Assembly: GCA_030425145.1 (NCBI GenBank)
Contig: JAUHVK010000004.1
Location: 124,001 to 188,000 of the forward strand
Direction: 5' to 3'
DNA length: 64,000 nt
DNA from: Alphaproteobacteria bacterium
GTDB taxonomy: Bacteria; Pseudomonadota; Alphaproteobacteria; Rhodobacterales; Rhodobacteraceae
Made by a program: the position numbers and the translations under genes. Under the pieces are notes generated by a model. That model was not told where the DNA came from, made no database searches, and saw nothing but the letters and a program-made list of their open reading frames with translations. The first letter of the stretch is position 1, and every line of letters begins with the position of its first letter. Positions 4,787-48,058 of the stretch are shown here, in pieces.

Positions 4787-5058
4787 TTCTGCCTCGATGT
4801 GACCCAAGGCATGTATTCAGTCGCGCAAAACGTCCGACCGATGTTTTCACCGTGCCGCACTAACTGACTGATTGCTGCTCCGCCTCGAGCCTTTTTATCT
4901 TTGTTCTACAAAGGTTAACACGATTGGAGACTTGGTGTCATCTCTTCGATGGTCGCGAAGACCACCGGAGACAATGAAATTGAGTCCTTTTCGCCACATT
5001 TGCCTCTACCGAGCAGAGGCGATAGCCAAGGCACAAGATCGAACAGGGGGCCATACCG

Positions 5059-22531: not shown

Positions 22532-22795
22532 ATGCGCTTCCTCAGTCGTCACCACAGCCCATATAAGTGCGCCATTTGACCAAATCGCGGCCACGACGCT
22601 GCAAAATCAAGACATTCCCGCGAAAAATATCCTAAGACACATGAGAAATGGGGCGTTTGTCGAATTATGACCATGATTGCATGGTCTATGCCCGACGGAA
22701 AAGACGCCAGAACCACGTGAGCAGACTGTGAAACGCACCCGAATCCCTCCTGTTCAAGGCGCGGCCTCCGGCGGTGGCCCCGCTAAGGTGCGTGC

Positions 22796-30476: not shown

Positions 30477-31883
30477 TTACTGCGCGTTACGCGGTGACAG
30501 CGAAAAGCCGATCAGTCCTGAAATCGGCTTTGCCAAAAGTCCAGCCAACCCGATCAGAAGGGCGATTAATGCCCCCAATGCGATCTTCCAGCCTTTGCGC
30601 TTTTTTCCCTTGGAGGCTGTGTCGCTTGTCTCCAAAACCGGTACCGAGATAACCGGGCGCACGCCAAGCACTCTCTCCATCTGGGCAGCGTTTCGGATCG
30701 GGGGGTTCAACATCTCGAGGATAAAGGCCACGCCCAGCGCGAGCATCCCGCTTGCCACACCGCCCATCATCGCAATCGAGCGTTTGCTGCGCGACACGGC
30801 GTAGACCGGAACGATTGCGCGTTCGAGCACTTCGAAACGCGCGAGCTGGCGCTGTTCCTCAAGGCTTTGGCTCATTTCTGCATCCGCCTTGCGGCGCGAA
30901 ATGACGGTGAATTGTTCGTTCAATTGGGTCAGCTCGCGCTGCAAGGACGCCAGTTCGCGTTCGATTGCGGGTGCCCTGACGAGGAGCGCGTTTATCTCGG
31001 CGGTGCGTGCTTCGATCAAGTTGATCTGATCCTGCAAGAGGCCAACCTCGCGCTGGAGCGCTTCTGCCCGCGTGCGAGCGCTGTTTGACTCGAGGCTCAG
31101 GATCTGCTGACGAAGGGTCAGCAGTGTGGAATTGAGGGTTGTCAGTTCGCCTTGCAAAACGCTGATATTCGTCGGCAGAACCTCGGCATTGGCGGATTTG
31201 AAATCGGCAATGACCTTTTCAGCCGCCGCGATTTCTTCGCGGATGCGCGCCTCTTCTCCATTGAAGAAAGTCAGTTCGAGCTGAGCACGATCAACACTTC
31301 GGCTGCGTGCCTCTTGCATCACGCGATCCAGAATCTCGTTCGCCACATCCGCGGCTTTCTGGGGGTCGCTGAGGTTGGCGGTGATGACCATTCCGGAGGC
31401 GGATTGCACAGGTTGCCAGGATTCGCCGCTGCCAATTGCTTCGACGCTGACGGACCGGCGCATCGCATCCAGACGCATAGACAGCGTCATTCCCGGGATG
31501 TCGGTGAAGAGGTCGTACTTGTCCATGATCTCAACCAGTGACCCGCGCGACATCACGCGCTGTTCGATCAGCTGGATGGTACGGCGCGCATCAAGGCTGG
31601 CGCGGTTGTCGACCATCGATCCAACACTGGTGTTGGTTCCGGCGACCTGCGCATCCTCGATCTGGACGACCGCAATCGCGTTGTAGACGGGTACCTTTGA
31701 CAAGGCCACGGCGACAGAGATCACGCACCCGACGAAGGTGATGAGGATGATGAGGCCCAAACGCCGCTTGATCGCGGAGAATACCTCTTCGAACGACTGA
31801 AAATACAGCACGCGTCCAACTCCAGTACCAAGGCCCCCGCCTTGCCCAATTCGGGTCAGAACGTGACCGCTCGCCTTGGACAA
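30477..31883 (-). CDS. Wzz/GumC-type polysaccharide co-polymerase
   Basis: 468 residues. An N-terminal transmembrane helix (~42-62, GLIILITFVGCVISVAVAL) is followed by the Wzz domain and a long periplasmic coiled coil (~200-365), a second helix near 372-392 (MMGGVASGMLALGVAFILEML) with the NPPIRN block, and a third hydrophobic helix near 431-450. No kinase domain is fused, so it needs a separate BY-kinase, encoded convergently next door. It sets chain length in polysaccharide export. A nested stem-loop precedes it. Confidence 0.9.
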   Translation of the reverse strand: MSKASGHVLTRIGQGGGLGTGVGRVLYFQSFEEVFSAIKRRLGLIILITFVGCVISVAVALSKVPVYNAIAVVQIEDAQVAGTNTSVGSMVDNRASLDARRTIQLIEQRVMSRGSLVEIMDKYDLFTDIPGMTLSMRLDAMRRSVSVEAIGSGESWQPVQSASGMVITANLSDPQKAADVANEILDRVMQEARSRSVDRAQLELTFFNGEEARIREEIAAAEKVIADFKSANAEVLPTNISVLQGELTTLNSTLLTLRQQILSLESNSARTRAEALQREVGLLQDQINLIEARTAEINALLVRAPAIERELASLQRELTQLNEQFTVISRRKADAEMSQSLEEQRQLARFEVLERAIVPVYAVSRSKRSIAMMGGVASGMLALGVAFILEMLNPPIRNAAQMERVLGVRPVISVPVLETSDTASKGKKRKGWKIALGALIALLIGLAGLLAKPISGLIGFSLSPRNAQ

Positions 31884-31992: not shown

Positions 31993-32943
31993 TCAATTTT
32001 GCGGGATGCCCGTGACCGGCAGAACGGACACCACGTCCCAGACCGTCTGCTGCATCAAACGCGCCAATTCCGGGCTCGGCGCAGTGGCTGGTGTTCCATC
32101 CGCACGCAACAGCTCAGTCGGCAGACCCAGAGGGGATGTCTGATACAGCACCGCGTAATGCGTAAGCGCGACAAGGTAGGCGCCAAGGTCATTGATGTGG
32201 ATTTGATCGACTGTCCCATCGTCCTGCCGGGCAAACAGGTCTTCCCGCGACACCACGGCACCAACGCCACCTGACGCTTCGATCCGCCGCACGAACTCGG
32301 CCATCACCCGTCCCGCCGGGACAACATAGATCGCAGGTGCGTCGGGATCACTCGCCATGGCACCCGCCAAGAGGGTGCCTTCCCAGTATCGCCCGGGGTC
32401 GGTGTCCAGTCGGTTCAACCAACCTTGCGGGTCATCAAGTTCGTGCCACGTTTCGTACAGATACACGCGGATTTCAGGATTGCCGCTTCGCGCTGCCGAG
32501 ACCCATTTTCCAACGTAGCCGACCGCATTGAAATAGGCGATGGCGGCTTCGAGCTCGACCATTTCGGTCAGTATGAAAGCGTCGTAATATCCGCTGGCCA
32601 ACGCGCCCTTGGCATCGCGGAAATGGTCATGCGCATTTTCAACCTCGAACCCTTGGATGGCTTCATCCGGTTCCCAATGTGCCTTGAGCGGAGTGCCCCA
32701 GCCAAGTTGTGAGGCATGCTCATGCCCTGCAAGCTGGGCCAACATCGACGGCATGTCGCGCCCGACGAGAGAATGCCCAAGGTGAAACACCTTCAACGGC
32801 CCCGTTGGCAGAGGCAGTGGCGTCTCGTATCGCGCCGCCATTTGATCCGCCGTCAGGGCTTTGGGACCGGCAAGGTAAGCCCATGCCGCAAGGCCACAGC
32901 CGATTGCCGCCAGTCCCGACAGGACAAGACGCCTGCGCATCAT
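31993..32943 (-). CDS. SGNH/GDSL-like hydrolase, membrane-anchored or secreted
   Basis: 316 residues. The N-terminus RRRLVLSGLAAIGCGLAAWAYLAG is a signal anchor. Block I reads VFHLGHSLVGRDMPSML, with the nucleophile Ser in GHS instead of GDS. The last block DQIHINDLGAYL supplies the Asp-x2-His pair. These features fit an SGNH-fold esterase or acyltransferase working in the periplasm. It begins two bases after the NRPS stop and is the last gene of the PKS-GT2-NRPS-SGNH operon, so it probably adds or removes an acyl group on the operon product or on a polysaccharide. Confidence 0.75.
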   Translation of the reverse strand: MMRRRLVLSGLAAIGCGLAAWAYLAGPKALTADQMAARYETPLPLPTGPLKVFHLGHSLVGRDMPSMLAQLAGHEHASQLGWGTPLKAHWEPDEAIQGFEVENAHDHFRDAKGALASGYYDAFILTEMVELEAAIAYFNAVGYVGKWVSAARSGNPEIRVYLYETWHELDDPQGWLNRLDTDPGRYWEGTLLAGAMASDPDAPAIYVVPAGRVMAEFVRRIEASGGVGAVVSREDLFARQDDGTVDQIHINDLGAYLVALTHYAVLYQTSPLGLPTELLRADGTPATAPSPELARLMQQTVWDVVSVLPVTGIPQN

Positions 32944-32945
32944 GC

Positions 32946-35900
32946 TCAGGCCTGTCGTCTTGCCCGCATGGCACGTCGGCGGGCCATTGCGTCAGCGCGT
33001 ACCTGTGCCCGATCGAATGGCTGCATCGACGGCTGCGAGATCGGTGTGACCTGCGCGGATGACTGCGGCGCCGAAGATATTGCGCCAAGCTGTGCCACGC
33101 GATCTGCCAGCGCCGAAAGCGTCGGGAACTGGAAAATATCAGTGATCGACAGTTTGGCGACCTGCAATCGGTCGCGCACCGCGCGGTGTGTTTGAACCGC
33201 CAGAAGAGAATGCCCACCGAGGTCGAAGAAATTATCCTCGGGCTGGATCTTTTGAACGCCTAGAACTTCCGTCCAGATCACGGCGATACTCGCCATCAAG
33301 GCGTCATCCGCCTGCCGTGCCGCTTTGGTGGGTTTCTGGACCTTTGGCTGGGGTCGCTGCGCAACACTGACTGGGGCAGGCAACGCCTTGCGGTCAATTT
33401 TCTGGTTCGGGGTCATCGGGAACGCGTCAAGCGACACGACATGGGACGGGACCATGTAGTCCGGCATTTTCTCGGACAGGGTCGTGCGAATGCTCTTGCC
33501 ATCAACCTCGGCCCGGGAAATGACATAGGCCACCAGACGCACGTCGCCCGGCGTGTCTTCGCGCGCCAGAACAACAGCATTTGTGATGCCGGGAATGGAC
33601 TGTATCGCGCTTTCGATCTCGCCCAGTTCAATGCGGAACCCACGCAGTTTGACCTGCGTGTCAGACCGGCCGAGGAAGTCCAGCTTGCCATCAGGGCGTC
33701 GGCGGACCAGATCACCTGTGCGGTACATGCGGCCGGGCGCAAAGGGATTGTCGAGGAAGCGATCCGCCGTCATCTCCTCCCGCTGCCAGTAGCCGCGGGT
33801 GACGCCGTCACCACCGATCCATAGCTCACCCTCCTCACCTATCCCAAGCAGGTTCTGCGCCTCGTCGAGTACGTATAGCTGGGTGTTGGCGATCGGGCGG
33901 CCGATGTTGATCGTTGCCTCATCGGCCGCTGCGCTTTCGGTCGACGACCAGATCGTCGTTTCCGTCGGACCGTACATGTTGGTGATCGTCGCGCCTGTGG
34001 CTTTCTTCAGGTCTGCAACCAAGGCACCGGGAAGCGCCTCCCCACCCAGGTAGATGTGCTTGAGACCATGCAGGCTGGCGCGGGCGTCGTCGTCCATTGC
34101 AATCATACGCGCCATGGACGGGGTGCATTGCATATGCGTTGCCCGATGCCGTGCCAGCATCGCCGCAATAGAGAAATCGGTGTCTTCGTGATCCATTGAA
34201 GGTGCGCAGTGTTGTACAACTTGGGCCAAGGGCTTGAGCCCCTCCAGCACTTGATCCGCGGCAATGCCATAGTCGATCAGACAAGCAATCTCGGACACGC
34301 CTATTGCCTGCAACTGCTCCACGCGGGCAAGTGCATCTTCAATGGTACCGAACAGACCAGAATCGTTGAAATACCGCTCGAACGCGAAATCAAGAATGCC
34401 CTCGAGATCGTCTTCGCTCAGATCGCCAAGGTTCAGTTCAAACGCATTCTTGACGCCTTCCGGTTTCTTGAAGGCCGGGAAAGCCCAAGCGTATTGCTTG
34501 ATCAAACCGGCGGCCGAGCGCAGGTAATCCTTCATCGGCTCACGCGCGATTTCGCGTGCATGGTCGCGCGTGTCAGCAAGGCAGGTGTGCAGCATCAGAG
34601 TGACGGTGAAATCATCCGGATTGTGTCCGGCTTCGCGCATGGCGTGGCGGTAGATCGAGATCTTGTCTGCCACTTCGTCAATCGACTGACCAAGCAGGTG
34701 CGTCAGAACATTGGCACCATTTGCGCCGGCTTCTCGCCAAGTCTCGGGGTTGCCCGCAGTTGTGACCCAGATGGGCAGTTCCCGGGACACCGGACGCGGC
34801 TGGGTGACAACCTCGTGCATCCGGCCATCCTTGCGCGGAAAAGCCACCGCTTCGCCGCGCCAAAGCTTACGCACCTGGTCGATCGCCTCGAACATCGCTG
34901 GTTTGTTGTCGGGCGGTGTGTTTTCCGGGCGCAGGACGAAATCATCCGGTTGCCAGCCGCTGGCGATGGCCAGACCCGCGCGACCGTTGGTGAGGTTGTC
35001 GATCACTGCCCATTCTTCGGCGATGCGGGCGGGATGGTGGAGTGGTGCAACACAGCTTCCGGCGCGGACACCGATCTGTTTAGTGACACCCGCAACCGCA
35101 GCGCCGGTGACCGACGGGTTCGGATAGGGACCACCAAAGGCATGGAAGTGCCGCTCTGGTGTCCAGACCGCGCAAAAGCCGTTTTCATCGGCAAACTTCG
35201 CGCCCTCGAGCAACAGACGGTATTTGTCCCGACCGACACCGTCGTCATTGCCCCAGTAATAGATGGAAAACTCCATTCCATCGCCATTCTTGCGCGCAGC
35301 ACCGCCGGAGATCACACCCCTTTGGCTGGCGCTCGGCAACACAACTTTGATGCCGCGGGACAAGGTATAGAAAAGTTCAAGGACAGAAATGTCGAAGCTG
35401 AGGCTGGTGACGGCCAGCCATGCGGCGTTGTCGCGATCATGAACAACCACATCCATGCCAGCGTAGAAGTTCATGACGTTGCGATGCTCGACCATGACAC
35501 CCTTGGGCAGTCCGGTGGAACCTGATGTGTAGATCACATAGGCGAGGGAGTCGCCCGTCGCGCTTGGCTCGGGATTGCTGGTGCGGGCGGATGAAAGGCG
35601 CGGATCACGATCGATGATCAGGCGGTCCGCCTGTGTCTCGGGCAGGTCAGCCGCGATATCGTGTTCCGTTATGACCACGCTAGCACCGCTATCCTTGAGA
35701 TAATGCGCCAGACGGTCCTGCGGGTAATCTGGATCCAAAGGCAGATATGCCCCACCCGCCTTGAGAATACCCAGCGCGCCCGCGACCAAGTCCGGCCCGC
35801 GCCGGCAATGCAGCCCGACCATCACATCAGGCCCGACGCCCATATCCCTTAGCGTGTGCGCAACGCGGTTCGCGTGTTCGTTGAGCGTGGCAAAAGTGAT

Positions 35901-37526
35901 TTCAGTATTCTCGAACACCAGAGCCGTCGCATCAGGCGTGCGGGCGACTTGAGCTTCGAATGCGCCCTGCATCGTCGTTGGCCCGTCGACGGCGATGGCC
36001 GTGTCGTTGAAGGCTGCCAGAAGGTCCGTCCGCTCTTCGGGCGGCAGTGTGTCGATGTCGTTCTCGTCGACGCCATCAGCCAGTTGCAGTGCAATCCACG
36101 CGACGCGCCGGATCAGAACGGTCGCAAAGGCGGGCATGATCCGCGCATCGTCGATATGGGCGACAACCGCCTGCTCGCTCACCTCGAACGTAAGACCTAC
36201 GCCCGGAATCGCCCCCGACCCGAGCGAAACACCAAGAGTTGGCGTCGCGAGAGCCGACAAGGCGGAGTCGCGAATCTGCAAATCTGTGGCAAAGCCTGAG
36301 TCGATTTCGGGCCACGTTGCGGTGAGCTCTGCGGCCGTCACTGGGACCCACGGACTGGTCAGTCCAAAGCGAGACTGGTCCTTGAGCGATGGGTTCGAAA
36401 ACGCGACCGACGCTTTTTCATCCGACGAAAGCCGCTGGATCAAACACCGGAGAGCAGCACCAAGGTATTCGCACTGTATGACGGTTGGATAAGCAGTGAT
36501 CCCGCTTTGCCCTGCGCCGACAAACGGCAAGGATATTGGCACGGCAGACGCCAAAGCACGCCGCCAACGCGTCTCACTCTTGGAAACGGCGCGCATGGTC
36601 TGGCTGATGTCGTCATAGTCTGACGACGAAAGTCCGGTCAAAACGGCACCCACAGAAACCAGCTTTGATGGATCAACTGGTGTACCGTCAGGTCCTTTCA
36701 CATCCGACAGCCGCACAGCACCGCTGGCAAAGGCGACGGTCAACGATACGTCATCCGCGGCAATCACTGTGCCGGGCGCAGCATTGCTTTCGAGCGGCTG
36801 GCCTGTGCCGATATTGAGCAACACGTCACCGATACGCAGTTTGGGCGTGCAGAGCGGGTTCCAGTAAGCGCCGTGATCCAAGGCGCGGATCTTGCGCAGA
36901 ACCGACTCGGCAGACTGATCAAACTGCAGAAGACCGTTTCCATCGGGGCGGTCGCTCAGAGCGTGATAGGTTCGTTGCGTTGGGTCCTGCGCGCGCCGTC
37001 CCGTCAGATCGTTCGTCAATTCGTTCAACAGGTCGGGAAAGCTGGTCAGTCCAGCCTCGTAGCACTTGGTGTTCAGAGTAAGCGCGGTATCTTGCGGCGA
37101 GATGTCGAAGCTGCGTTGAACAAGAATGTCACCGGTATCAATTCCGCCATCAATCAGATGCCATGTGATCCCGTGTGTCTTCTCACCTTCCAACAGCGCC
37201 CAGACGGGCGCGTTCAGGCCTGCGTGTTTCGGCAACGGGCCATCGTGAAAATTGACAGCGCCCTTACGTCCCAAGGACAGAATTTCGGGCGAAAGCACTT
37301 TGAGATTGGCAATACTCAGAACCCAATCGGCCTCTGATCCCTTGAGGCGATCGGCCAGATCGGACCCGTGATGTTCACATCTGATGCCACGTCCCTGCGC
37401 CCACTTACGGACATCTGGGTTGTCAGTGACCATTGCCTGCACCTTGTGGCCTTGTGCGAGAGCAGTCTCCGCACAATGCTGGGTTAAGCTTTCATCGCCG
37501 ATAATAATACAATCGAAAGAAGTCAT
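32946..37526 (-). CDS. Formyltransferase-NRPS: F - partial C - A(monooxygenase insert) - PCP
   Basis: 1526 residues. 1-~290: N10-formyl-THF-type formyltransferase with Asn92, His94 (NFHDGPLPKHAG) and Asp130 (IDTGDIL). ~300-500: resembles the C-terminal lobe of a condensation domain (ETRWRRALASAVPISLPF onward); the HHxxxDG lobe is absent. ~515-735: first part of an adenylation domain (YTSGSTGLPKGV; FDISVLELF). ~736-1104 (nt 34215-35321): luciferase-like monooxygenase inserted between A4 and A5. ~1105-1385: rest of the A domain (NMYGPTETT; YRTGDLV; NQKIDRK). 1407-1480: carrier domain, Ser1440 in DLGGHS. The ten-residue specificity code reads DILQYGMIWK, one change from the glycine code DILQLGMIWK. 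Expected intermediate: N-formyl, possibly hydroxylated, glycyl-S-PCP. The C-terminal tail is strongly basic. Confidence 0.9.
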   Translation of the reverse strand: MTSFDCIIIGDESLTQHCAETALAQGHKVQAMVTDNPDVRKWAQGRGIRCEHHGSDLADRLKGSEADWVLSIANLKVLSPEILSLGRKGAVNFHDGPLPKHAGLNAPVWALLEGEKTHGITWHLIDGGIDTGDILVQRSFDISPQDTALTLNTKCYEAGLTSFPDLLNELTNDLTGRRAQDPTQRTYHALSDRPDGNGLLQFDQSAESVLRKIRALDHGAYWNPLCTPKLRIGDVLLNIGTGQPLESNAAPGTVIAADDVSLTVAFASGAVRLSDVKGPDGTPVDPSKLVSVGAVLTGLSSSDYDDISQTMRAVSKSETRWRRALASAVPISLPFVGAGQSGITAYPTVIQCEYLGAALRCLIQRLSSDEKASVAFSNPSLKDQSRFGLTSPWVPVTAAELTATWPEIDSGFATDLQIRDSALSALATPTLGVSLGSGAIPGVGLTFEVSEQAVVAHIDDARIMPAFATVLIRRVAWIALQLADGVDENDIDTLPPEERTDLLAAFNDTAIAVDGPTTMQGAFEAQVARTPDATALVFENTEITFATLNEHANRVAHTLRDMGVGPDVMVGLHCRRGPDLVAGALGILKAGGAYLPLDPDYPQDRLAHYLKDSGASVVITEHDIAADLPETQADRLIIDRDPRLSSARTSNPEPSATGDSLAYVIYTSGSTGLPKGVMVEHRNVMNFYAGMDVVVHDRDNAAWLAVTSLSFDISVLELFYTLSRGIKVVLPSASQRGVISGGAARKNGDGMEFSIYYWGNDDGVGRDKYRLLLEGAKFADENGFCAVWTPERHFHAFGGPYPNPSVTGAAVAGVTKQIGVRAGSCVAPLHHPARIAEEWAVIDNLTNGRAGLAIASGWQPDDFVLRPENTPPDNKPAMFEAIDQVRKLWRGEAVAFPRKDGRMHEVVTQPRPVSRELPIWVTTAGNPETWREAGANGANVLTHLLGQSIDEVADKISIYRHAMREAGHNPDDFTVTLMLHTCLADTRDHAREIAREPMKDYLRSAAGLIKQYAWAFPAFKKPEGVKNAFELNLGDLSEDDLEGILDFAFERYFNDSGLFGTIEDALARVEQLQAIGVSEIACLIDYGIAADQVLEGLKPLAQVVQHCAPSMDHEDTDFSIAAMLARHRATHMQCTPSMARMIAMDDDARASLHGLKHIYLGGEALPGALVADLKKATGATITNMYGPTETTIWSSTESAAADEATINIGRPIANTQLYVLDEAQNLLGIGEEGELWIGGDGVTRGYWQREEMTADRFLDNPFAPGRMYRTGDLVRRRPDGKLDFLGRSDTQVKLRGFRIELGEIESAIQSIPGITNAVVLAREDTPGDVRLVAYVISRAEVDGKSIRTTLSEKMPDYMVPSHVVSLDAFPMTPNQKIDRKALPAPVSVAQRPQPKVQKPTKAARQADDALMASIAVIWTEVLGVQKIQPEDNFFDLGGHSLLAVQTHRAVRDRLQVAKLSITDIFQFPTLSALADRVAQLGAISSAPQSSAQVTPISQPSMQPFDRAQVRADAMARRRAMRARRQA

Positions 37527-37529
37527 GGC

Positions 37530-38549
37530 TCACTCCGCGCTTGTCTGTAGTGAGGATTCTGAAGACAGGTCGATGGATCGGATCGTCGCGTTTGGCGTCG
37601 GTCGGACCAGTGCACGCAAGTCATGCGCAACCAAGTCAGCCAGAAAATGCTTTGCACCCGTGATCGGCTTGCCTTCGATAAAACGCCTCAATCGCCACAT
37701 CGACGTACCCAGCACATTCAGCGCCGTCGCGGCGATGGCATAGGTCCGGCTGTGGTTTTTGCTGAAATAATACCAGCGGCTTTCGTACCAATAGGCGGGC
37801 GTTCGGGCCCAAGTGCTCATGCCGGTGGATACTGACCCGATATGGCAGACCCGACTTTCTCGGACAAAGTGCACTTCGTGGCCCGCCCGATGTGCGCGCA
37901 GGCAAAGATCGGTTTCTTCAAAATACAGAAAGAAGGTTTCGTCAAAGAGGCCAATATCGCGAAGTACGCTGGTTCGCACCATCATGGACGCGCCGAGGAT
38001 CCACCCAACAGGGCCAGACTCGTCCGGCACGTGCATGGGAAGGACGTAGTTCTTCAACAGCCTTGTGACCGGACCCAAACGAACAGCAGCTTCGAATTCC
38101 GATGCGAGGCCGGGGAACCGGAAAGCACTGCAATGGTCCTCTCCGTCTTCTCCGTGGGCCCAACTGCCTGCGATGGCCACCTTTGGATGATCGCCGAGGT
38201 AATCGACCAGAGCAGCGATGGCCGCCTCTTCTGCCAGTGCGTCAGGGTTCAGGATATAAACAAATTCTGCAGTCGGGCAGATTTGAAGACCCGCATGGAT
38301 TCCGAAGTTGTTGCCTGCCCCGTAACCGGCGTTTCGCCCAGACTGTAGCACCTGAACGTTGAGATGGGCTGGCCATTCCGCGGCGTTGACAAGGCTTTTC
38401 ATGCGCGTGAATGAATCGTCCGGCGAGTCGTTATCGACCAGAACGATCGCACCTCCGAAAGACGTCATTGCTGCCGCCGCAGACTGCGCTGCCTGAACAG
38501 CAAGATCCGGTGTTTTGTAATTGAGGACGACAGCAACGATATCCGTCAT
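37530..38549 (-). CDS. Glycosyltransferase family 2 in the PKS-NRPS operon
   Basis: 339 residues of the rhamnosyltransferase-like (WbbL) GT2 group: IVAVVLNYKTPDLAV, IVLVDNDSPDDS, GRNAGYGAGNNFGI, the metal-binding YILNPDA (DxD-type) and FDETFFLYFEETDLCLRAHRAGH, with the catalytic ED-type base. There are no clear membrane helices. It lies 5 bp after the PKS stop and 3 bp before the NRPS start, so all three genes must be expressed together. It probably glycosylates the hybrid product or transfers a sugar to the polysaccharide made by the flanking genes. Confidence 0.9.
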   Translation of the reverse strand: MTDIVAVVLNYKTPDLAVQAAQSAAAAMTSFGGAIVLVDNDSPDDSFTRMKSLVNAAEWPAHLNVQVLQSGRNAGYGAGNNFGIHAGLQICPTAEFVYILNPDALAEEAAIAALVDYLGDHPKVAIAGSWAHGEDGEDHCSAFRFPGLASEFEAAVRLGPVTRLLKNYVLPMHVPDESGPVGWILGASMMVRTSVLRDIGLFDETFFLYFEETDLCLRAHRAGHEVHFVRESRVCHIGSVSTGMSTWARTPAYWYESRWYYFSKNHSRTYAIAATALNVLGTSMWRLRRFIEGKPITGAKHFLADLVAHDLRALVRPTPNATIRSIDLSSESSLQTSAE

Positions 38550-38554
38550 TCAAA

Positions 38555-41500
38555 TCACTCCGCAGCTTCTGTGGTGTTGAACGACAAAATTCGCCCTTTG
38601 CCACCAACCGAAGCTTCGGTCGTGGTGATCACAGTTCGCAGATAGCTGGCAAGAACCCGAACATTCGGTTCAAGAACCATACTGTCATGGTCTCCCGGCA
38701 CTTCGAAAACCTCGATCTGGGGGGTGTATTGGCCCCAATCGTTGTCATCAAAAAGATAGGCCCGTTCGTGGTTGACCAATTTGCCGTCAGAAACTGTCCA
38801 TGTGCCGATCAATGGCGGGCGGAAAAGTGCGATACGGCCATCCCAAGGTTTGACATCGTAATGGCTTACCGCCTGCAAGAACGCCTGTTCGATCTCCGCA
38901 TTATGGAAACTGTGCGCCGTCCGGGTTTCTTCCGTGGCGCGGCGTTTCTCGATCTCCCACCGTATGCGATTGCGCAACCAAATATAGGGATATGTCAGAC
39001 CTCTACGCCGCGTTTCCTGTAGCTGGATCAACAGGCGATCCTTGCGGCTTAACGGACGGCGCTGGGGCAACGGTGTATCCAGCAGAACAACAAGGGCCAC
39101 GGTGTCGCCCATCGCTTCGAGTTGGTGCGCGATCTCATACGCTGTGATGCCACCGCCCGAAAATCCACCAACAAAGTAGGGTCCATGCGGCTGAACCTGT
39201 TTCATCTCGGCAATGTAGTCGCGCGCCGCCTCTTTGATCGAACTGTGCGGCGTCTCATCACCATAGAGACCCCTTGCCTGAAGCCCGTAGAAGGGGCGGT
39301 CCTCGCCCAGGAGCTGCGCAAGGTGGCGTAGGTTGAGAACGTTTCCGAACATCCCGGCGACGAGGAAGAACGGGGATTTCCGCCCACCTTCGCCATCGTG
39401 CATCGGCACGATATGCTTGAACCGCCGCGCTTTCGGTTTCGGCTTTTTGCCGTGCGCTTCTGGGGCCTCGACAACTTCGGTGCGCTCTTTGATCAGATTT
39501 GCGCAGGCGCGGATCGTCGGGGCTTCGAACAGGATCGAGATCGGGAAATCGACGTTGTAGGTCTTGCGAACCTTGGCAAACAGGCGCACTGCGATCAGGG
39601 AATGCCCGCCAAGATCGAAGAAACTGTCTTCGACACCGACGTTCTGAACGCCAAGCAATTCTTCCCAGATACCAACCAGCGTGCGCTCAATCTCCGTTTC
39701 CGGCGCTGCATAGTCACCATCAAGCTGCGGTCGATCGAATTTCTGGGTCTCGGATTTCGTCTCCGCCGCGACCGATGCCTGTTTGACGAGCGCTTCCATA
39801 TCAAGAGACGAGACATAGATTTGCGGATCGTCCCGCCGCAATGCGCGCAGGAAGACGTCTGCACCTTCGACCGACGAGATTCCCTGCGAGAGGTTATGCT
39901 GGAACCGTTCTTCTGCAGCCGACAGAGGTTGGGTCGATCTGCTGAAGTCAGCAGGTTCGAATTCCGCCTTGTTTACTTTCACAGGCGCAGCAAGGGACGA
40001 CATGTCTGACAGCCGCTTGATTGAAAAATCTTCAATCTCCATGCAGACCGTTCCATCCGGCATCGCAATGGTGATGTCGAAGGACGCCGTTTCATCTGCG
40101 TTGCGGTTGCTGCCCGAAGACCTGACCCAACTCACGATGCGTTCGGGCAGGCGATGGTAAACATGTACCTTGTCGTAAGAGACCGGGACCCAAAGTTTGT
40201 CACCCTGATACCCGTCGATCAGTTCCATTGCCCAGCCGGTCGCGATGTCCAGCAGCCCGGGGTGGAAATGCCAACCCTTATCTTCGCGGATCGCTGCATT
40301 TAGTGACAGGTCAGCAATGCCTTCGCGATCACCATAGGCGCAGCTGTCCAACACGCGCCAACTTGGGCCGAAATTGAGCTGCGTTTCCTGTGCTGCTGCA
40401 AGTTTGCTACCGCTACTTGCGCCGCGCGCGGCGCCACAGCGTTCACGGATCGCCGCAATGTCTATCGGCTTTGGCTCGGCTTCCGGGATAAGTGAGAGAT
40501 CGGCCGTCACGACAGGCACAAACCCTTTGCGACCCTCCAAGGTACAACTGCCGAGAACGTCCAGATGGTAGCCATCATCGCGACGCGTCAGACGAACACG
40601 GATCTCGCGGCTTTCATTCTCAGGCACGTGCAGTGGCCGGAGAAAGGTCATATCGCGGATTGCAAAGCTGCTGGTTTCACCCTGCCCGCGCAATGCCTTC
40701 GAGGCCATCGTCAGATAACCTGCGCCCGGGAACAAGGCATCGCCCTGCTTGGTGCGGTGTTGGTCGATGAACCAGTCTTCTGTCGAATAGCTGGCTTCGA
40801 AAATGCGGTGCCCTGATGGATCAAAGCCGGTCTCGTCCAGAAGCGGAAGATGGACCGGAGCCATCTGAACTGGTTCGGAGTCACCGATGCGATCGGCCAA
40901 GGCCGTGGCCGCCATACCGACATCGGCCCAGATACCCCAGTTGATGGCAAGAACCTTCGTTTTGTCTCCACGCCGCGCGTGTGCGTAGGCGTTGAGGAAC
41001 TCGTTGGCCGCAACATAGTCGATCTGACCCGCCGGGGCTGTCTGGGTCGAGGACGATGAGAACAGCGCGATGAAATCCGTCGACCTATCCGGGAATACCT
41101 GATCGAGAACCTTTGTCCCGTGAATCTTGGATGAAAACACCTTCTCGATGGAGCCCGTGGACTTCGCAAGAAGCGGCGCGTCTTCCATGATGCCGGCAGC
41201 ATGGACAACGCCATCTATGCGCCCTTGGTGAGCTTGCGTGGTCTCAACTACGGCTTTCATCTCTGGCAGATTACAGACATCAGCTGCGTGCGCATGCACG
41301 GTTGCCCCAAGCTCTTCGAGTTCTTGAACCGCTCGAATACGCCGGGAGTTTTTATCCTGCGGTGCATGACGACGAAGGTAATGCTCCCAATCGTCGCGAG
41401 GGGGAAGCGGGTCGCGTGACGTTAGGACCAACGTGCATCCTTGCTCTGCAAGGAGTTTCGATACGGTCAGGCCGATCCCACCAAATCCACCGGTTATCAG

Positions 41501-44500
41501 ATAAGTGCCGCCTGCACGGATCGATGTTTCTCCATCGTCTTTCAAAACCGTTTTCTGGAGCGATTGCTCGTACCTGCGGCCCGCACGGATGACCGCAACA
41601 GAGGACGATGGATCCGCGATCATGTCCTCGACCACCTGAACGGTCAGGTCTTCCCATTCCTGTTCAGTCCGTCGGTTTGCGACACCGCCAAACAAGTGAC
41701 GCTTGGGTTTCTTGGGTATCGTCAGATCAACGGACGACACTGTCAGCCCGTCAATCTCGCGCGGGATCACTCTGACCGGACCCGAGATGATCGCCTTTTC
41801 CGGCGACACGAGTTTCTCCTGTCCGAACGCGGCCGCCCCGTTTGTGAAGACCGTAATATGGGTCGGCTTGGGCAGCGTGTCGTCCGCGATGGCCTGAGCT
41901 GTGAACATCAGGGAATAAAACCCGTGCTCCTGCATGCGGTGGAAAAAGCTCGAACCGGGACGATGGCTTTCGTCCTTGGTGACCCCCCAGAAATGCGCGA
42001 TGCGGCTTGGCACCAAACCGCGGGCCAGCATATCGCGGAACAAGAGGTCATAGCCTTCGCGCCCGCGCTCCGGCGCAAGGACATAGGTGGTGTCGTCAAG
42101 CCGCGCAAAGCTATCGCCTGGCCACACCTCGACAATAGAATGACCAGCCTCGCGCAAGCGTTTCGCAGCGGCGCTGGCCACGCCTGCATCATCCATGAAG
42201 ACCAGCCAGCTTTGCAGATCGACCTTGTCCAATTCGTTCCGCACATCCACTGGCGCGGCGGCGTATTTGGGTCGCCACACAGGCGCCCAACCCCAGTTCT
42301 CGACGCCTTCGATGCGGGTCAAGAAACTGGACACGGTCTCGCTTTGAGGACGTCCCGGCGCGATGAAGTAACGTGACCTCTGGAAAGCATAGGTCGGCAG
42401 CGGAACACGATTGCGGCGCACATCACCCCAAAGCTGATCCCAGTCAAACTCGCCGCCCAAGGCCCAGACTCGGCCCAGAACCTCAAGCATGTGGCGATCA
42501 TCTTCGATCGTTTCGTCCGGGTGCCGAAGACTCGACAAGACCTGGTTCGCCTCGATGCCTTCACACTGGCGGGCGAGAGCTGACAGCGCTTTGCCGGGAC
42601 CGACTTCTAGAAAAATGCGATTCTGCCTATCGGCAAGCGTATCCAAGCATTGTGCGAATAGAACCGTTCCTCGCAAATGATCGACCCAGTATTCCGGATC
42701 GGTCGCCTGTTCGTCCGTCATCATCACACCGCTCCGGTTCGAGGTGAGCGGAATCTGCGGTGGATTCAGTTGGATTTCCCTGAGGTAGCTACGGAACCGG
42801 TCGAGGATCGGCTCGAGCATCCGCGAATGCGCTGCGACGTTGATCGGAATTCGCTGATAGTCGATGTCTTGCTTCTTGAGCTCGGTCTCGAGGGTCATCA
42901 GCGCCACAGCCGGACCGGATGCAACGCTCAGGCCCGGGCTGTTGATCGCACCGAGATCAAGCCCCGTCCCCAAGAGCGGCCGGAGTTCCTCGGCAGGAAG
43001 CGCAACGGAAATCATTCCGCCGGTCTCTACGCCATCAAACAGCGTTCCCCGCAAATGCACCAGACCGATACAATCTTCGAACGACATGACGCCAGCGACG
43101 CAGGCAGCGGTGTTCTCACCCATGGAGTGGCCGGCAAGTGCAGACGGGTGGACACCCCAGCTCATCCAAAGCTGTGCAAGCGCGTATTCGACGATCATGA
43201 TCAAAGGCAGCTGCAAGGACGGCTGACGCAAGGCTTCTGCAGCTTGCGCTTCGCCGCCCGGCTCGGGTAGCCACAATGCCTTGATGTCGCGCGTTTCAAG
43301 CGATTGTAGATGGGCCAGCCCGCGATCCATCCATTCCGCAAAGACCGGCTCGGTCTCGTAAAGATCGCACGCCATTCCGACATATTGCGCCCCGCCGCCA
43401 GGGAAAAGGAATGCCACATCCGGGCGGGACAGCGCATTATGTGAATGCACGCGCCGCTGGTCCGCGTTCTCCAACAGCTTGGCAGCATCCAGATGATCGC
43501 TGGCCACGACAATGCGACGTTTCTCAAAGGCGCGCCGACCCGCCTTAAGCGTCCATGCCACATCTGCCAGCGGTTGATCCGGGTTGGCCCGCAGATGCGC
43601 GGCAAGCTGTTCTGCATTCGCCTCGAGCGCCGCCTTGGTCCGGCCAGAGACCGTGATAATCTGGAAAGGCCAATCGCTGTCTTCGGATGCGATCGCTTCG
43701 GGCGCTTCTTCGAGCACCACATGAGCGTTTGTTCCGCCAACGCCAAGCGAGTTCACACCTGCCCGGCGCGGATGATCTTGTTGCGGCCAATCCGTGAGGC
43801 GGTCGTTGACCCGAAATGGCGAGGTCTCAAAATCAATGGCGGGATTGGGTTTTTCATACCCGAGGCTGGGCGGCATTTGGCGATGATGCAACGCCATGGT
43901 TGCCTTGATCAGACTCGCCACACCGGCGGCGGTATCCAAGTGCCCGATATTGGTTTTGACCGATCCAATCCGGCAGTGACCAACCTTTTCGCTGGTCTCC
44001 TCGAAGGCTTGTGTCAGCGCTGCGATCTCAATGGGATCGCCAAGATAGGTCCCGGTGCCGTGACATTCCACATAGTCAATGCTGTCAGCCGAGACCCCTG
44101 CAATGCCGTGTGCCTCGGCAATGGCATCAGCCTGTCCTTTGACGGAGGGTGCAAGATATCCGGCTTTTGACGCCCCATCGTTGTTGACGGCGCTGCCTTT
44201 GATCACGGCCCAAATGTGGTCGCCGTCTGCCAGTGCATCGGACAAACGACGCAAGACCACAATGCCGGCACCGGAACCAAACACGGTGCCTTTCGCGCGA
44301 TGATCGAATGCGTGACACTGTCCATCCGGCGATAGAATTTCGTTTTCCTTGTAGAGATAGCCCTGCCCCTGAGGCAGTTCGATGGTGACCCCCCCGGCAA
44401 GGGCAAGGTCACACTCGCCATTCAATAGAGACTGGCACGCGTAATGCGTTGCAACGAGCGAAGTGGAACAAGCGGTCTGCACGCCGACAGAAGGGCCATC

Positions 44501-45028
44501 AAGGTCGAAGATGTGGCTGACCCGCGTGGTCAGGAAATCCTTGTCGTTGCCGGTATGGCGCAACAGGAACATCCCGGTGTTTTCGACGAGGTCCGTGTTG
44601 GAACACAGGTTGAAATAGAAATAGCTGCCCATCCCGCAGCCGCCGAACACACCAATGCGCCCGTCGTGACGGTCCGGCATGTGCCCTGCATTCTCCAGCG
44701 CTTCCCAGGCGCATTCCAGAAAATGCCGGTGCTGCGGATCCATGATCGCGGCATCCTTCGGCGAAAGGCCAAAGAACTCCGCATCAAAATGGTCGTAGAG
44801 GTCCAGAAGTGCCGCAAATGGGACGTAGTCGCGGTGACGCATGAGGCCCGGTGGAACACCGGCCTCGATTAACTCGTCTTCGTTCAATCTGCGAATCGAA
44901 GACACTCCGTCCCGCAGGTTGCGCCAATACTGTGCCAGCGATGCCGCCCCTGGCAGATGGGCGGACATGCCGACGATGGCGATGTCAGCTTCTGCGGCCG
45001 AAACCGGCGCAAGCATTTCATTCGTCAT
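38555..45028 (-). CDS. Single-module type I PKS: KS-AT-KR-DH-ACP-TE
   Basis: 2157 residues. KS ~14-440 (Cys187 in TACSTS, His323 in HGTGT, His363 in NIGH). AT ~538-830 (Ser635 in GHSMGE; selectivity region VAAHS, not a clear malonyl or methylmalonyl motif). Structural KR half ~905-1160, KR ~1172-1375 (TGGFGGIG; Tyr1338 and Asn1342). DH hot-dog region ~1408-1675 with His1424 (HRTKQGDALFP, one residue longer than the usual HxxxGxxxxP) and Asp1594, but the usual Gln/His four residues later is Gly. ACP ~1776-1846 (Ser1810). TE ~1885-2135 (Ser1957 in GFSGGG, Asp1984, His2114). The order KR before DH is unusual for a modular PKS. It is the first gene of the operon; no phosphopantetheinyl transferase lies in this window. 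Confidence 0.93.
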   Translation of the reverse strand: MTNEMLAPVSAAEADIAIVGMSAHLPGAASLAQYWRNLRDGVSSIRRLNEDELIEAGVPPGLMRHRDYVPFAALLDLYDHFDAEFFGLSPKDAAIMDPQHRHFLECAWEALENAGHMPDRHDGRIGVFGGCGMGSYFYFNLCSNTDLVENTGMFLLRHTGNDKDFLTTRVSHIFDLDGPSVGVQTACSTSLVATHYACQSLLNGECDLALAGGVTIELPQGQGYLYKENEILSPDGQCHAFDHRAKGTVFGSGAGIVVLRRLSDALADGDHIWAVIKGSAVNNDGASKAGYLAPSVKGQADAIAEAHGIAGVSADSIDYVECHGTGTYLGDPIEIAALTQAFEETSEKVGHCRIGSVKTNIGHLDTAAGVASLIKATMALHHRQMPPSLGYEKPNPAIDFETSPFRVNDRLTDWPQQDHPRRAGVNSLGVGGTNAHVVLEEAPEAIASEDSDWPFQIITVSGRTKAALEANAEQLAAHLRANPDQPLADVAWTLKAGRRAFEKRRIVVASDHLDAAKLLENADQRRVHSHNALSRPDVAFLFPGGGAQYVGMACDLYETEPVFAEWMDRGLAHLQSLETRDIKALWLPEPGGEAQAAEALRQPSLQLPLIMIVEYALAQLWMSWGVHPSALAGHSMGENTAACVAGVMSFEDCIGLVHLRGTLFDGVETGGMISVALPAEELRPLLGTGLDLGAINSPGLSVASGPAVALMTLETELKKQDIDYQRIPINVAAHSRMLEPILDRFRSYLREIQLNPPQIPLTSNRSGVMMTDEQATDPEYWVDHLRGTVLFAQCLDTLADRQNRIFLEVGPGKALSALARQCEGIEANQVLSSLRHPDETIEDDRHMLEVLGRVWALGGEFDWDQLWGDVRRNRVPLPTYAFQRSRYFIAPGRPQSETVSSFLTRIEGVENWGWAPVWRPKYAAAPVDVRNELDKVDLQSWLVFMDDAGVASAAAKRLREAGHSIVEVWPGDSFARLDDTTYVLAPERGREGYDLLFRDMLARGLVPSRIAHFWGVTKDESHRPGSSFFHRMQEHGFYSLMFTAQAIADDTLPKPTHITVFTNGAAAFGQEKLVSPEKAIISGPVRVIPREIDGLTVSSVDLTIPKKPKRHLFGGVANRRTEQEWEDLTVQVVEDMIADPSSSVAVIRAGRRYEQSLQKTVLKDDGETSIRAGGTYLITGGFGGIGLTVSKLLAEQGCTLVLTSRDPLPPRDDWEHYLRRHAPQDKNSRRIRAVQELEELGATVHAHAADVCNLPEMKAVVETTQAHQGRIDGVVHAAGIMEDAPLLAKSTGSIEKVFSSKIHGTKVLDQVFPDRSTDFIALFSSSSTQTAPAGQIDYVAANEFLNAYAHARRGDKTKVLAINWGIWADVGMAATALADRIGDSEPVQMAPVHLPLLDETGFDPSGHRIFEASYSTEDWFIDQHRTKQGDALFPGAGYLTMASKALRGQGETSSFAIRDMTFLRPLHVPENESREIRVRLTRRDDGYHLDVLGSCTLEGRKGFVPVVTADLSLIPEAEPKPIDIAAIRERCGAARGASSGSKLAAAQETQLNFGPSWRVLDSCAYGDREGIADLSLNAAIREDKGWHFHPGLLDIATGWAMELIDGYQGDKLWVPVSYDKVHVYHRLPERIVSWVRSSGSNRNADETASFDITIAMPDGTVCMEIEDFSIKRLSDMSSLAAPVKVNKAEFEPADFSRSTQPLSAAEERFQHNLSQGISSVEGADVFLRALRRDDPQIYVSSLDMEALVKQASVAAETKSETQKFDRPQLDGDYAAPETEIERTLVGIWEELLGVQNVGVEDSFFDLGGHSLIAVRLFAKVRKTYNVDFPISILFEAPTIRACANLIKERTEVVEAPEAHGKKPKPKARRFKHIVPMHDGEGGRKSPFFLVAGMFGNVLNLRHLAQLLGEDRPFYGLQARGLYGDETPHSSIKEAARDYIAEMKQVQPHGPYFVGGFSGGGITAYEIAHQLEAMGDTVALVVLLDTPLPQRRPLSRKDRLLIQLQETRRRGLTYPYIWLRNRIRWEIEKRRATEETRTAHSFHNAEIEQAFLQAVSHYDVKPWDGRIALFRPPLIGTWTVSDGKLVNHERAYLFDDNDWGQYTPQIEVFEVPGDHDSMVLEPNVRVLASYLRTVITTTEASVGGKGRILSFNTTEAAE

Positions 45029-45342: not shown

Positions 45343-46215
45343 TTACCGGCCTCGACTCCACCCATTGTCCGTGCTCCCGGTCAACCGAACGGCGATAGCG
45401 ACACCTGAGTAAACGGCAAACCCCAATGGATCCTGTAGGGCAAGAATTGCTTTTTCTTTCAGCGGAAAGGCTGGTTTGTCGTCATTAGCGAGCAATTCTG
45501 AATAGAGCGCACGTATTTCATCAACGCCCGCATTCTGACGTCGACGCACACGGATTAGATTGCGCCAACCCTCGACCAAGGGCCATGTGTAGGTTGCGGG
45601 CACTCCAACCCGTTCATCCGGTCGGAACGAGAGGCGGACAAACGTGTCGTCAGAAATGATGTCCGGAAAGCTGTCCCATCGCATCCGACCCGCCGCATTG
45701 ACCGCGAACACACCTGCTCCGGGTACGCCGTGAGTCATGAACGGCACCTTGGAATAAATGCGCGCATAAGCATTGGTGATACGGGACTTTGCAGGAGCTA
45801 GGATCAGTGTACCGCTCGCGTAGCGTGGCTGGGATGTTTCGAGAACATCCTGTAACTGGCTTAGAAGTTGCTCTGAAACTTCGACATCCGCATCAAGGTA
45901 GACCCGGTTCGGCGCACGAGCCACGTGATCACCGGCATTCAATGCGCCCAGTTTACCGCCTTCCTTGCGATCCAACACCTGAAGGCTCAGCCCTCGTTCA
46001 GCAAACAGGGGTTGCATCTCAAGCGCTTTTTCAGTGGTGCGGTCGCGGCTCCCGTTCGAAATCACGATCGTCTCGAAAGGCACATCTTTCTGCCATTCGC
46101 TTTGCAAGACCGCGTCAAGACACTTCCCGATCAGCGCCTCTTCGTTAGAGGCGGGGATCAATACGCTGAGCAGCGGCAATGTCACGGATTTCGAACCGTG
46201 CGCTCTCTGCGGCAT
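45343..46215 (-). CDS. Glycosyltransferase family 2
   Basis: 290 residues. LSVLIPASNEEALIGKCLDAVLQS, TIVISNGSRDRT, KLGALNAGDH and the metal site VYLDADVEVS mark a GT-A transferase; FPDIISDDTFVRLSF supplies the catalytic Asp region. It ends 314 bp before the PKS operon on the same strand, and no strong terminator separates them. It is probably part of the polysaccharide locus rather than the hybrid pathway, but the two may be connected. Confidence 0.88.
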   Translation of the reverse strand: MPQRAHGSKSVTLPLLSVLIPASNEEALIGKCLDAVLQSEWQKDVPFETIVISNGSRDRTTEKALEMQPLFAERGLSLQVLDRKEGGKLGALNAGDHVARAPNRVYLDADVEVSEQLLSQLQDVLETSQPRYASGTLILAPAKSRITNAYARIYSKVPFMTHGVPGAGVFAVNAAGRMRWDSFPDIISDDTFVRLSFRPDERVGVPATYTWPLVEGWRNLIRVRRRQNAGVDEIRALYSELLANDDKPAFPLKEKAILALQDPLGFAVYSGVAIAVRLTGSTDNGWSRGR

Positions 46216-47990: not shown

Positions 47991-48058
47991 GTGGTCTCCA
48001 AGAAAATTACTATCCTCAGATAACAATGAAACTGCATCCGCTTCCATGGGATTCAGCA

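Follow-up and report, generated by a model that had tools for sequence, protein, structure and literature searches.

What does a four-gene operon that joins a polyketide synthase (PKS), a glycosyltransferase and a nonribosomal peptide synthetase (NRPS) make, and does its product leave as a free compound or end on a surface glycan? We analyzed a 64,000-nucleotide stretch of Rhodobacteraceae DNA (the window), in which a sequence-only reading had described four closely spaced minus-strand genes. The set is intact: the open reading frames encode 2157, 339, 1526 and 316 amino acids, and the intergenic gaps of 5, 3 and 2 bp were confirmed. PKS, glycosyltransferase and NRPS adjoin in one orientation.

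38555..45028, minus strand: PKS, one module of KS-AT-KR-DH-ACP-TE, 2157 aa, residues invariant in 81/81
37530..38549, minus strand: family 2 glycosyltransferase (GT2) between PKS and NRPS, in the same place in 75/80 loci
32946..37526, minus strand: NRPS starter module, F-(C-lobe-like linker)-A[MOX]-PCP, 1526 aa
31993..32943, minus strand: SGNH-type protein with an N-terminal helix, a putative membrane anchor

Rfam and tRNA scans returned no matches, and there was no signal in the promoter scan (2 sites versus 6.0 in shuffles) or the terminator scan (12 versus 14.0).

To follow the genes through the family, we used the monooxygenase model TIGR04020, which scored over its cut-off in 142 of the family's 394 genomes. 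Related loci were taken from 80 of these 142, mostly by score order, so that close relatives are favored; most short contigs were left out, and two loci (L038 and L107) carry a different NRPS. A full NRPS was present in 75 of the 80 loci examined. Neighbors were counted as tblastn matches of the window's proteins at E ≤ 1e-5, which misses diverged neighbors; for the phosphopantetheinyl transferase (PPTase) the query was a Ruegeria protein. The search for the same gene order that had been proposed from the sequence recovered PKS-GT2-NRPS in 73/80 of the related-genome loci. The order was also found in 79/80 named loci, taken as the best 80 among 576 confirmed matches to a profile of the formyltransferase plus linker. 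Recurrence in both sets places the operon far beyond chance. With the gene set this widespread, a one-off cluster was ruled out.

The locus had been guessed to be one of the unassigned hybrid PKS-NRPS loci of roseobacters, and it does match a published cluster. The passages of PMC4337385 on this cluster describe four genes, PKS/GT/NRPS/PPTase, in 28/57 roseobacter genomes, with an uncharacterized product; those of PMC5014874 report the same cluster in Leisingera JC1 and give the product as unknown, so that in these accounts the homologues are tied to no known compound. Both credit Martens et al. for the cluster, and one of the two calls for finding its product and function. Leisingera sp. ANG-Vp and JC1, two strains from these papers, have PKS-GT2-NRPS-PPT-SGNH on their contigs. 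A further relative is the hybrid NRPS-PKS cluster of pCP157_02 in Paracoccus marcusii CP157, whose description in PMC8273931 uses the term hybrid HSR-NRPS-PKS, in the passages concerned without resolving these genes; we found homologous PKS, GT2 and MOX-bearing NRPS genes on NZ_CP065894, a 225 kb sequence from Cancer pagurus that is presumably pCP157_02.

The window shares the order of PKS, GT and NRPS with the roseobacter cluster but differs in its fourth gene. A PPTase follows the NRPS in 62/80 related-genome loci; none lies in the 2 bp between the window's NRPS and SGNH genes, and none was found at the eight Marivita-like loci, seven of which extend past the NRPS. In those seven the SGNH gene comes directly after the NRPS, as in the window, and the eighth ends within the NRPS. 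AcpS and an Sfp-type PPTase are encoded elsewhere in the window's genome. Because the operon lacks the PPTase, we class the locus as a variant by descent of the roseobacter cluster, not as the four-gene set itself.

The PKS had been read as one complete module with a thioesterase, and all of its domains were detected:

43709..44986, minus strand: KS domain, residues about 15-440; Cys and two His invariant in 81/81
42566..43411, minus strand: AT domain, residues about 540-821; GHS[M]G present
40922..42205, minus strand: KR domain with its structural half, residues about 942-1369; Ser, Tyr and Asn invariant
40001..40846, minus strand: DH domain, after KR, residues about 1395-1676; His and Asp invariant
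39491..39682, minus strand: PKS carrier domain (ACP), residues 1783-1846
38609..39367, minus strand: thioesterase (TE) domain, residues about 1888-2140; Ser, Asp and His invariant

The checked catalytic residues were invariant in 81/81 aligned sequences, after exclusion of the 5/85 loci with PKS matches shorter than 2000 residues. KR precedes DH, which is an unusual order.

The NRPS had been read as F-A-PCP. All three domains were found; the reading had overlooked a linker after the F domain and a monooxygenase inside the A domain.

36627..37526, minus strand: formyltransferase (F) domain, residues 1-300; N92, H94 and D130 present
35982..36629, minus strand: linker akin to a condensation C-lobe, residues about 300-515
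33096..33287, minus strand: PCP domain
32949..33014, minus strand: basic C-terminal tail of the NRPS, of the DAMARRRAMRARR type, recurrent among the 30 relatives listed

The Asn-His-Asp active residues of the F domain are retained (N92 in 85/86 sequences, H94 and D130 each in 84/86), and in structure its AlphaFold model resembles Met-tRNA formyltransferases and ArnA. Since the 50 matches listed for a model of F plus linker were formyltransferases, we judged the linker by profile comparison. In a single hhalign comparison it matched the C-terminal half of a condensation domain with a probability of 86% (E 6e-7; controls with parts of the F domain, ≤0.1%), which is moderate evidence, as a short conserved segment ahead of the A domain accounts for part of the score. 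The HHxxxDG condensation motif is absent from the whole NRPS protein, which ends after the PCP and the basic tail, a candidate docking element, with no TE of its own. With no HHxxxDG motif and only a half-condensation-like linker, the module should only start chains. Action of the NRPS downstream of the PKS was ruled out by the same missing motif.

Formyl-glycine starters are known as the oxazoles of oxazolomycin and conglobatin, where a cyclodehydratase closes the ring. LgrA of linear gramicidin synthetase, which ranks first among the PDB matches of the NRPS, likewise carries an N-terminal formyltransferase on an A-PCP module, but there F is fused directly to A-PCP, whereas the window's NRPS has the linker of about 200 residues and the inserted monooxygenase. 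Unlike LgrA, it presumably passes its unit on to a PKS. In the records of Deinococcus and Aliiroseovarius, a PKS-bearing gene comes directly after the NRPS, as expected of a starter; in Shinella and Aminobacter the two genes are divergent. Gene order gives no single direction, the PKS gene standing before the NRPS gene in the family.

The A domain of this module is split:

35274..35981, minus strand: A domain, first part, motifs A3 (666) and A4 (711)
34218..35270, minus strand: FMN-dependent luciferase-like monooxygenase (MOX), TIGR04020, residues 753-1103, inserted between A4 and A5
33375..34217, minus strand: A domain, second part, motifs A5 to A10; the ten-residue code spans both A parts

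MOX thus lies between A4 at residue 711 and A5 at residue 1184. It matches Bac_luciferase and, over the full length of the model, TIGR04020 (MupA/Atu3671; 480.5 bits versus a cut-off of 244.45), and PuwE 6ket was the chain matching this stretch among the PDB matches listed. Among the loci selected with the F-plus-linker profile (best 80 of 576), independently of MOX, 77/80 have a MOX region, and the remaining three are cut by a contig end. The texts searched held no literature on Atu3671/TIGR04020 or on the gene cluster family. The A-domain code, DILQYGMIWK, is glycine-type, and the form DILQ[M/L/F/Y/C]GM[I/V]WK was found in 84/86 sequences. It is one letter off DILQLGMIWK, the code of all four MOX-bearing Gly A domains in the survey of PMC12283262, a precedent that supports the proposed formyltransferase-led starter with a glycine-type code.

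The sequence-only reading had the starter as plain N-formylglycine, extended once, and would leave MOX silent or acting elsewhere. The F-A-PCP precedent of linear gramicidin synthetase, with LgrA as top match, speaks for it; however, since a monooxygenase that matches its model in full length and is kept wherever the locus is uncut sits inside the A domain, we consider it very unlikely, and reject plain N-formylglycine as the whole story.

Another use of MOX would be hydroxylation of nitrogen, with F giving N-formyl-N-hydroxyglycine, a reverse hydroxamate and metal ligand. Formylated hydroxamates occur in siderophores, and MOX and F are both enzyme types that act near the same nitrogen. We nevertheless find this siderophore-like product barely credible: where PMC11342130 and PMC10204066 deal with MOX domains inside Gly A domains, these hydroxylate C-alpha, and the six annotated regions, whose gene tables are incomplete, name no siderophore receptor or iron transport gene.

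Among known MOX-bearing modules, the terminal MtaG/MelG-type modules of myxothiazol and melithiazol come closest: their MOX, too, is inserted into a glycine A domain at the A4-A5 site, and the code is near-identical. These modules accept a chain and end it, whereas the window's NRPS begins with an F domain. The solanimycin synthetase also has a flavin monooxygenase inside a glycine A domain, and alpha-hydroxyglycine in its product; as presented in the relevant part of PMC10204066, its MOX lies between A8 and A9 of an internal module, in a line with a long multi-module product, unlike the window.

The shared A4-A5 site and code type, which the pertinent parts of PMC10204066, PMC11342130 and PMC12283262 give for cleaving modules, raise the prospect that MOX acts as in the myxothiazol and melithiazol modules, so that the N-formyl carbinolamide breaks, formamide is lost and a glyoxylyl thioester (an aldehyde) starts the PKS, giving 4-oxocrotonate-type products. 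SolF, which retains hydroxyglycine, has its MOX at A8-A9 instead (PMC10204066, same part), in line with cleavage. Yet the formyl group would be spent only to be lost, which is costly, and the cleaving modules in these accounts end chains, whereas this NRPS should start them. Cleavage is a real prospect, though we would not expect it. It fits a polysaccharide and a free-metabolite destination alike.

The GT2 call in the operon held up, with modest Pfam GT2 matches over the cut-off; homologues also occur away from PKS and NRPS genes in Rhizobiaceae. The SGNH protein has no Pfam or NCBIfam match. A Foldseek search with its AlphaFold model (pLDDT 90.8) gave a DUF4886 protein, a CE2 and a CE3 carbohydrate esterase as the three matches at E ≤ 0.001, and further SGNH esterases and OatA followed slightly above this value; S58, D246 and H249 are invariant in 23/23 sequences. 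The SGNH fold, the Ser and the Asp-x-x-His of the superfamily are thus all found, the fold with modest matches (the three best have a TM by query of 0.33-0.46), in agreement with the SGNH-type hydrolase first proposed. SGNH was ruled out as a core gene, being present in only 21/80 related-genome loci and 29/80 named loci (best 80 of 576). GT2 and SGNH may act on the PKS/NRPS product.

The operon had been placed inside a polysaccharide locus, and we asked how far its surroundings bear this out.

45343..46215, minus strand: second GT2 of the locus, a recurrent neighbor (47/80 loci)
46320..48059, minus strand: protein without Pfam or NCBIfam match, a recurrent neighbor (20/80 loci)
30477..31883, minus strand: Wzz/chain-length determinant
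29694..30473, plus strand: polysaccharide tyrosine autokinase-like ATPase
21746..22594, minus strand: WecG/TagA/CpsF glycosyltransferase, the linked marker

The left flank agrees, with Wzz-like, tyrosine kinase-like, glycosyltransferase and WecG genes; the right flank offers only one GT2 and two proteins without Pfam matches before a flagellar island begins. At 13/80 loci, tblastn (E 1e-5) found no homologue of eight window neighbors within the stretch taken. A WecG-type glycosyltransferase lies within 15 kb of the NRPS in 29/30 genomes, hand-picked from the 80 related-genome loci together with the window's own genome, and occurs anywhere in 5/30 comparison genomes chosen from those without a MOX match over the cut-off. 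Across the family, WecG is present in 137/142 genomes with MOX over the cut-off versus 59/252 without, an association whose significance is overstated because related loci are not independent events. Those 59 genomes carry WecG without MOX over the cut-off. Polysaccharide genes also surround the full module at 7/8 annotated plasmid loci, the exception being an Aliiroseovarius variant beside nos genes. This linkage, which ties the PKS-GT-NRPS cluster to one polysaccharide pathway, is new here and strong.

TE domains usually hydrolyze or cyclize, and an intact triad such as this one usually leads to a free acid or lactone. The product could accordingly be small and diffusible, such as a formamido-hydroxycrotonate or its butenolide, to which GT2 perhaps adds a sugar; the polysaccharide location would then reflect co-inheritance of surface life and chemical signaling. 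The antiSMASH work in the relevant parts of PMC4337385 and PMC5014874 treats the cluster as a secondary-metabolite cluster. Some copies also have transport or regulatory genes nearby: Shinella has genes for type I secretion together with a response regulator, Aminobacter a TolC-family gene next to its PKS, and Paracoccus a sigma-54 regulator. Such genes vary by locus, however; the transporter type that recurs across annotated loci is an oligosaccharide flippase, and the WecG linkage is tighter than expected for a free compound. We regard a free metabolite as possible but doubtful.

We put forward, with confidence evenly poised, that the conserved roseobacter PKS-GT-NRPS cluster, in its PPTase-lacking variant, works in an exopolysaccharide pathway and that the glycan receives its acyl unit. 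Both carriers would be primed by a PPTase encoded at another site in the genome. By analogy with homologues, the A domain would load glycine onto the PCP, the F domain would N-formylate it there, and the formylglycyl unit would be hydroxylated at C-alpha; the KS would then accept this unit for one extension, probably with malonyl, and KR and DH would reduce and dehydrate it to 4-formamido-4-hydroxycrotonyl-ACP (or 4-oxocrotonyl-ACP). Going by linkage, the TE may release or transfer the acyl group, and the polysaccharide of the WecG pathway would come to carry it as a substituent or a cap. GT2 would build this glycan, and at loci with an SGNH gene its product would trim acyl groups or move them, beyond the inner membrane. 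Against this proposal, the linkage is no proof that the glycan is where the acyl unit goes, and among the core genes we found no dedicated acyltransferase.

A bolder version, which we offer tentatively and think unlikely in full, is that a chain-ending module became a chain-starting one when a formyltransferase replaced the catalytic half of its condensation domain, and that its oxidized glycine unit, either an aldehyde or a formyl carbinolamide, now passes to a one-module PKS to yield a reactive short acyl group on an exopolysaccharide.

The tie to the WecG locus points the search for the product to the glycan, and not to culture extracts alone, and MOX together with the glycine-type code allows exact mass predictions. 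If the product is on the polysaccharide, natural-product assembly lines would be joined to surface-glycan chemistry in a major marine bacterial group. If the chain-starter reading is also true, a large share of the Rhodobacteraceae would have an NRPS-PKS line dedicated to decorating a glycan with a cross-linking or amine-binding group.

The interval 31993-45028 of the window is filled by four minus-strand open reading frames with intergenic gaps of 5, 3 and 2 bp, matching the layout described in the sequence-only reading:

38555-45028, minus strand, PKS
37530-38549, minus strand, GT2
32946-37526, minus strand, NRPS
31993-32943, minus strand, SGNH protein

Pfam assigned KS, AT, KR, DH, carrier and TE domains to the PKS and GT2 domains to the second gene. 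In the NRPS it recognised formyltransferase, AMP-binding, Bac_luciferase and carrier domains. The catalytic residues of all six PKS domains did not vary across 81 PKS sequences (5 of 85 loci, with a PKS match shorter than 2000 residues, were omitted), in line with the earlier call of a PKS with a thioesterase. The fourth gene had no family match in Pfam or NCBIfam. Its structure model (pLDDT 90.8) retrieved three PDB entries at E ≤ 0.001: one is a DUF4886 protein, and the others are carbohydrate esterases of families CE2 and CE3. More SGNH esterases and OatA followed slightly above that threshold. Together with S58, D246 and H249, identical in all 23 aligned sequences, these matches uphold its SGNH identity. 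Residues 2-24 form a helix in the model and could act as a membrane anchor.

The NRPS had been described as F-A-PCP. Its formyltransferase (F), adenylation (A) and carrier domains were all found, but that description lacked an additional domain: residues 753-1103 matched TIGR04020, an FMN-dependent monooxygenase (MOX), with 480.5 bits against the NCBIfam cut-off of 244.45. The MOX is inserted after motif A4 (711) and before A5 (1184). We aligned 86 NRPS sequences and observed that the formyltransferase Asn, His and Asp were retained in 85, 84 and 84 of them and the carrier serine in 84. The ten-residue A-domain code, taken positionally from this alignment, was DILQ[M/L/F/Y/C]GM[I/V]WK in 84/86; of the other two, one lacked the last position only and one was an outlier. 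DILQLGMIWK is the reported code of all four MOX-bearing glycine A domains in one survey (PMC12283262).

The HHxxxDG motif was absent from the NRPS protein. The linker between F and A aligned over 205 columns to residues 233-524, C-terminal to HHxxxDG, of a condensation-domain profile built from three MOX NRPS sequences (hhalign probability 86%, E 6e-7 for a single comparison; ≤0.1% for both F-domain parts). On the simplest reading of these alignments, the formyltransferase would have taken the place of a condensation domain's catalytic half. In the Deinococcus and Aliiroseovarius records, a PKS-bearing gene directly follows the homologous NRPS, which fits the expectation for a starter module; within the family the PKS gene lies ahead of the NRPS gene, and the pair is divergent in Shinella and Aminobacter. 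A basic C-terminal tail of the NRPS, recurrent among the 30 sequences printed, is a candidate docking element.

A glycine starter carrying formyl and MOX steps is likely. In the myxothiazol and melithiazol lines, MOX domains within glycine A domains are reported to hydroxylate C-alpha, and subsequent N-C bond cleavage gives a glyoxyl thioester (PMC11342130, PMC10204066); solanimycin B retains the hydroxyglycine, with the MOX between A8 and A9 (PMC10204066). Unlike that of solanimycin, the MOX here lies between A4 and A5. Because this is the insertion site of the cleaving modules, retention and cleavage are both possible, and a single PKS extension followed by KR and DH action would yield a 4-formamido-4-hydroxycrotonyl or a 4-oxocrotonyl thioester.

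Of 394 sampled genomes of the family, 142 had a TIGR04020 match over the cut-off, and 80 loci were drawn from 80 of these, mostly by score order. A full-length NRPS was present in 75, a same-strand PKS upstream in 78 and a GT2 between them in 75; all three stood in order in 73, the pattern being broken in 7. A PPTase lay downstream in 62 and a same-strand SGNH gene in 21, and 17 loci held all five genes. Searching genome contigs with an F-plus-linker profile gave at least 576 confirmed matches. In the best 80 of these, the PKS-GT2-NRPS order recurred in 79 (the exception is a 4.1-kb contig), the MOX region was present at ≥90% length in 77, with the NRPS match stopping at a contig end in the other 3, and the nearest named relatives of the window were mostly Marivita. 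The sequence-only reading had proposed a search for the same four genes in order; the first three recur in that order in most loci of both samples. In a phylum sample of 398 genomes, matches above 380 bits occurred in 15, including the window's own; 5 were outside the family, in the same class. The numerous weaker matches listed covered mainly the formyltransferase part.

The match to a Paracoccus marcusii NRPS copy (NZ_CP143307.1, 248005-252426) falls into nine pieces, whose annotation shows many short proteins; this copy is perhaps decayed or a sequencing artefact. On a plasmid of Aliiroseovarius sp. M344, a variant NRPS with an F-A-MOX layout is followed by a 9.2-kb NRPS/PKS gene, flanked by genes for nitrous oxide reductase and by an XrtD/VPLPA-CTERM region. 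In another phylum, a Deinococcus actinosclerus plasmid bears homologous F, A-MOX-PCP and PKS genes within a capsule-like locus, suggesting transfer together with the polysaccharide context.

An NRPS, PKS, glycosyltransferase and PPTase cluster with an uncharacterised product is described from 28 of 57 roseobacter genomes (PMC4337385) and, likewise uncharacterised, from Leisingera sp. JC1 (PMC5014874). The JC1 and ANG-Vp contigs carry PKS-GT2-NRPS-PPT-SGNH genes homologous to the window locus (the JC1 PKS is clipped by the contig end), so the gene set is already in print, without a product in those papers, and the earlier guess of an unassigned roseobacter hybrid PKS-NRPS locus proved apt. The terms polysaccharide, monooxygenase, luciferase and formyl do not occur, even within words, in the main texts of the two papers. 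The literature search covered open-access texts, and a product may conceivably have been identified later elsewhere. Whereas the published cluster counts a PPTase among its four genes, the window locus has none, nor was one found in eight Marivita-like loci, seven of which extend beyond the NRPS and have SGNH in that place. AcpS is encoded elsewhere in the genome, as is an Sfp-type PPTase that shares 33% identity with a cluster PPTase across 145 residues. We conclude that the locus is almost certainly a variant form of this orphan roseobacter cluster.

The operon had also been placed inside a polysaccharide locus, and its left flank agrees: besides a chain-length determinant (Wzz), it encodes a tyrosine kinase-like protein and several glycosyltransferases, as well as a glycosyltransferase of the WecG type (21746-22594). 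Nearby, a Gfo/Idh/MocA oxidoreductase fused to an SDR epimerase (27075-29183) has a homologue in 28/80 related loci. Elsewhere in the window, two adjacent Hint-domain proteins lie at 2139-4807. At 46320-48059, a 579-aa protein without a Pfam or NCBIfam match, possibly a glycan-acting enzyme, stands beside the cluster in 20/80 loci; SGNH is likewise present in 18 of those 20.

Within the stretch taken, 61/80 loci held a homologue of at least one of three window proteins (Wzz, kinase, WecG); counting any of eight window neighbours gave 67, leaving 13 with none. As a cleaner linkage test, WecG was located genome-wide in 30 cluster genomes (mean 1.3 copies). A copy no more than 15 kb from the MOX domain was present in 29/30; at 10 kb the count was only 3/30, because the two typically lie some 12 to 13 kb apart. 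For Wzz, 26/30 had a copy within 20 kb. WecG occurred anywhere in 5 of 30 genomes without a MOX over the cut-off. Across all 394 genomes, it was present in 137/142 with MOX versus 59/252 without MOX over the cut-off (Fisher P 7e-51, without correction for relatedness). WecG homologues formed two main score groups (~1e-38 to 1e-48 and ~1e-54 to 1e-64). Frames in the second were often longer, and all 29 cluster-linked copies belonged to the first. Among ten plasmid loci inspected around the full module, seven had polysaccharide genes (two Ruegeria, Shinella, Paracoccus, Aminobacter, Parasedimentitalea and Deinococcus), two lacked annotation, and one, that of Aliiroseovarius sp. M344, had nos genes and an exosortase instead. 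Overall, our analyses favour, somewhat more than they disfavour, a cluster that works within the WecG polysaccharide pathway. In a working model that we consider evenly balanced, the acyl group built by the proposed formyl, MOX and PKS chemistry would end on the glycan.
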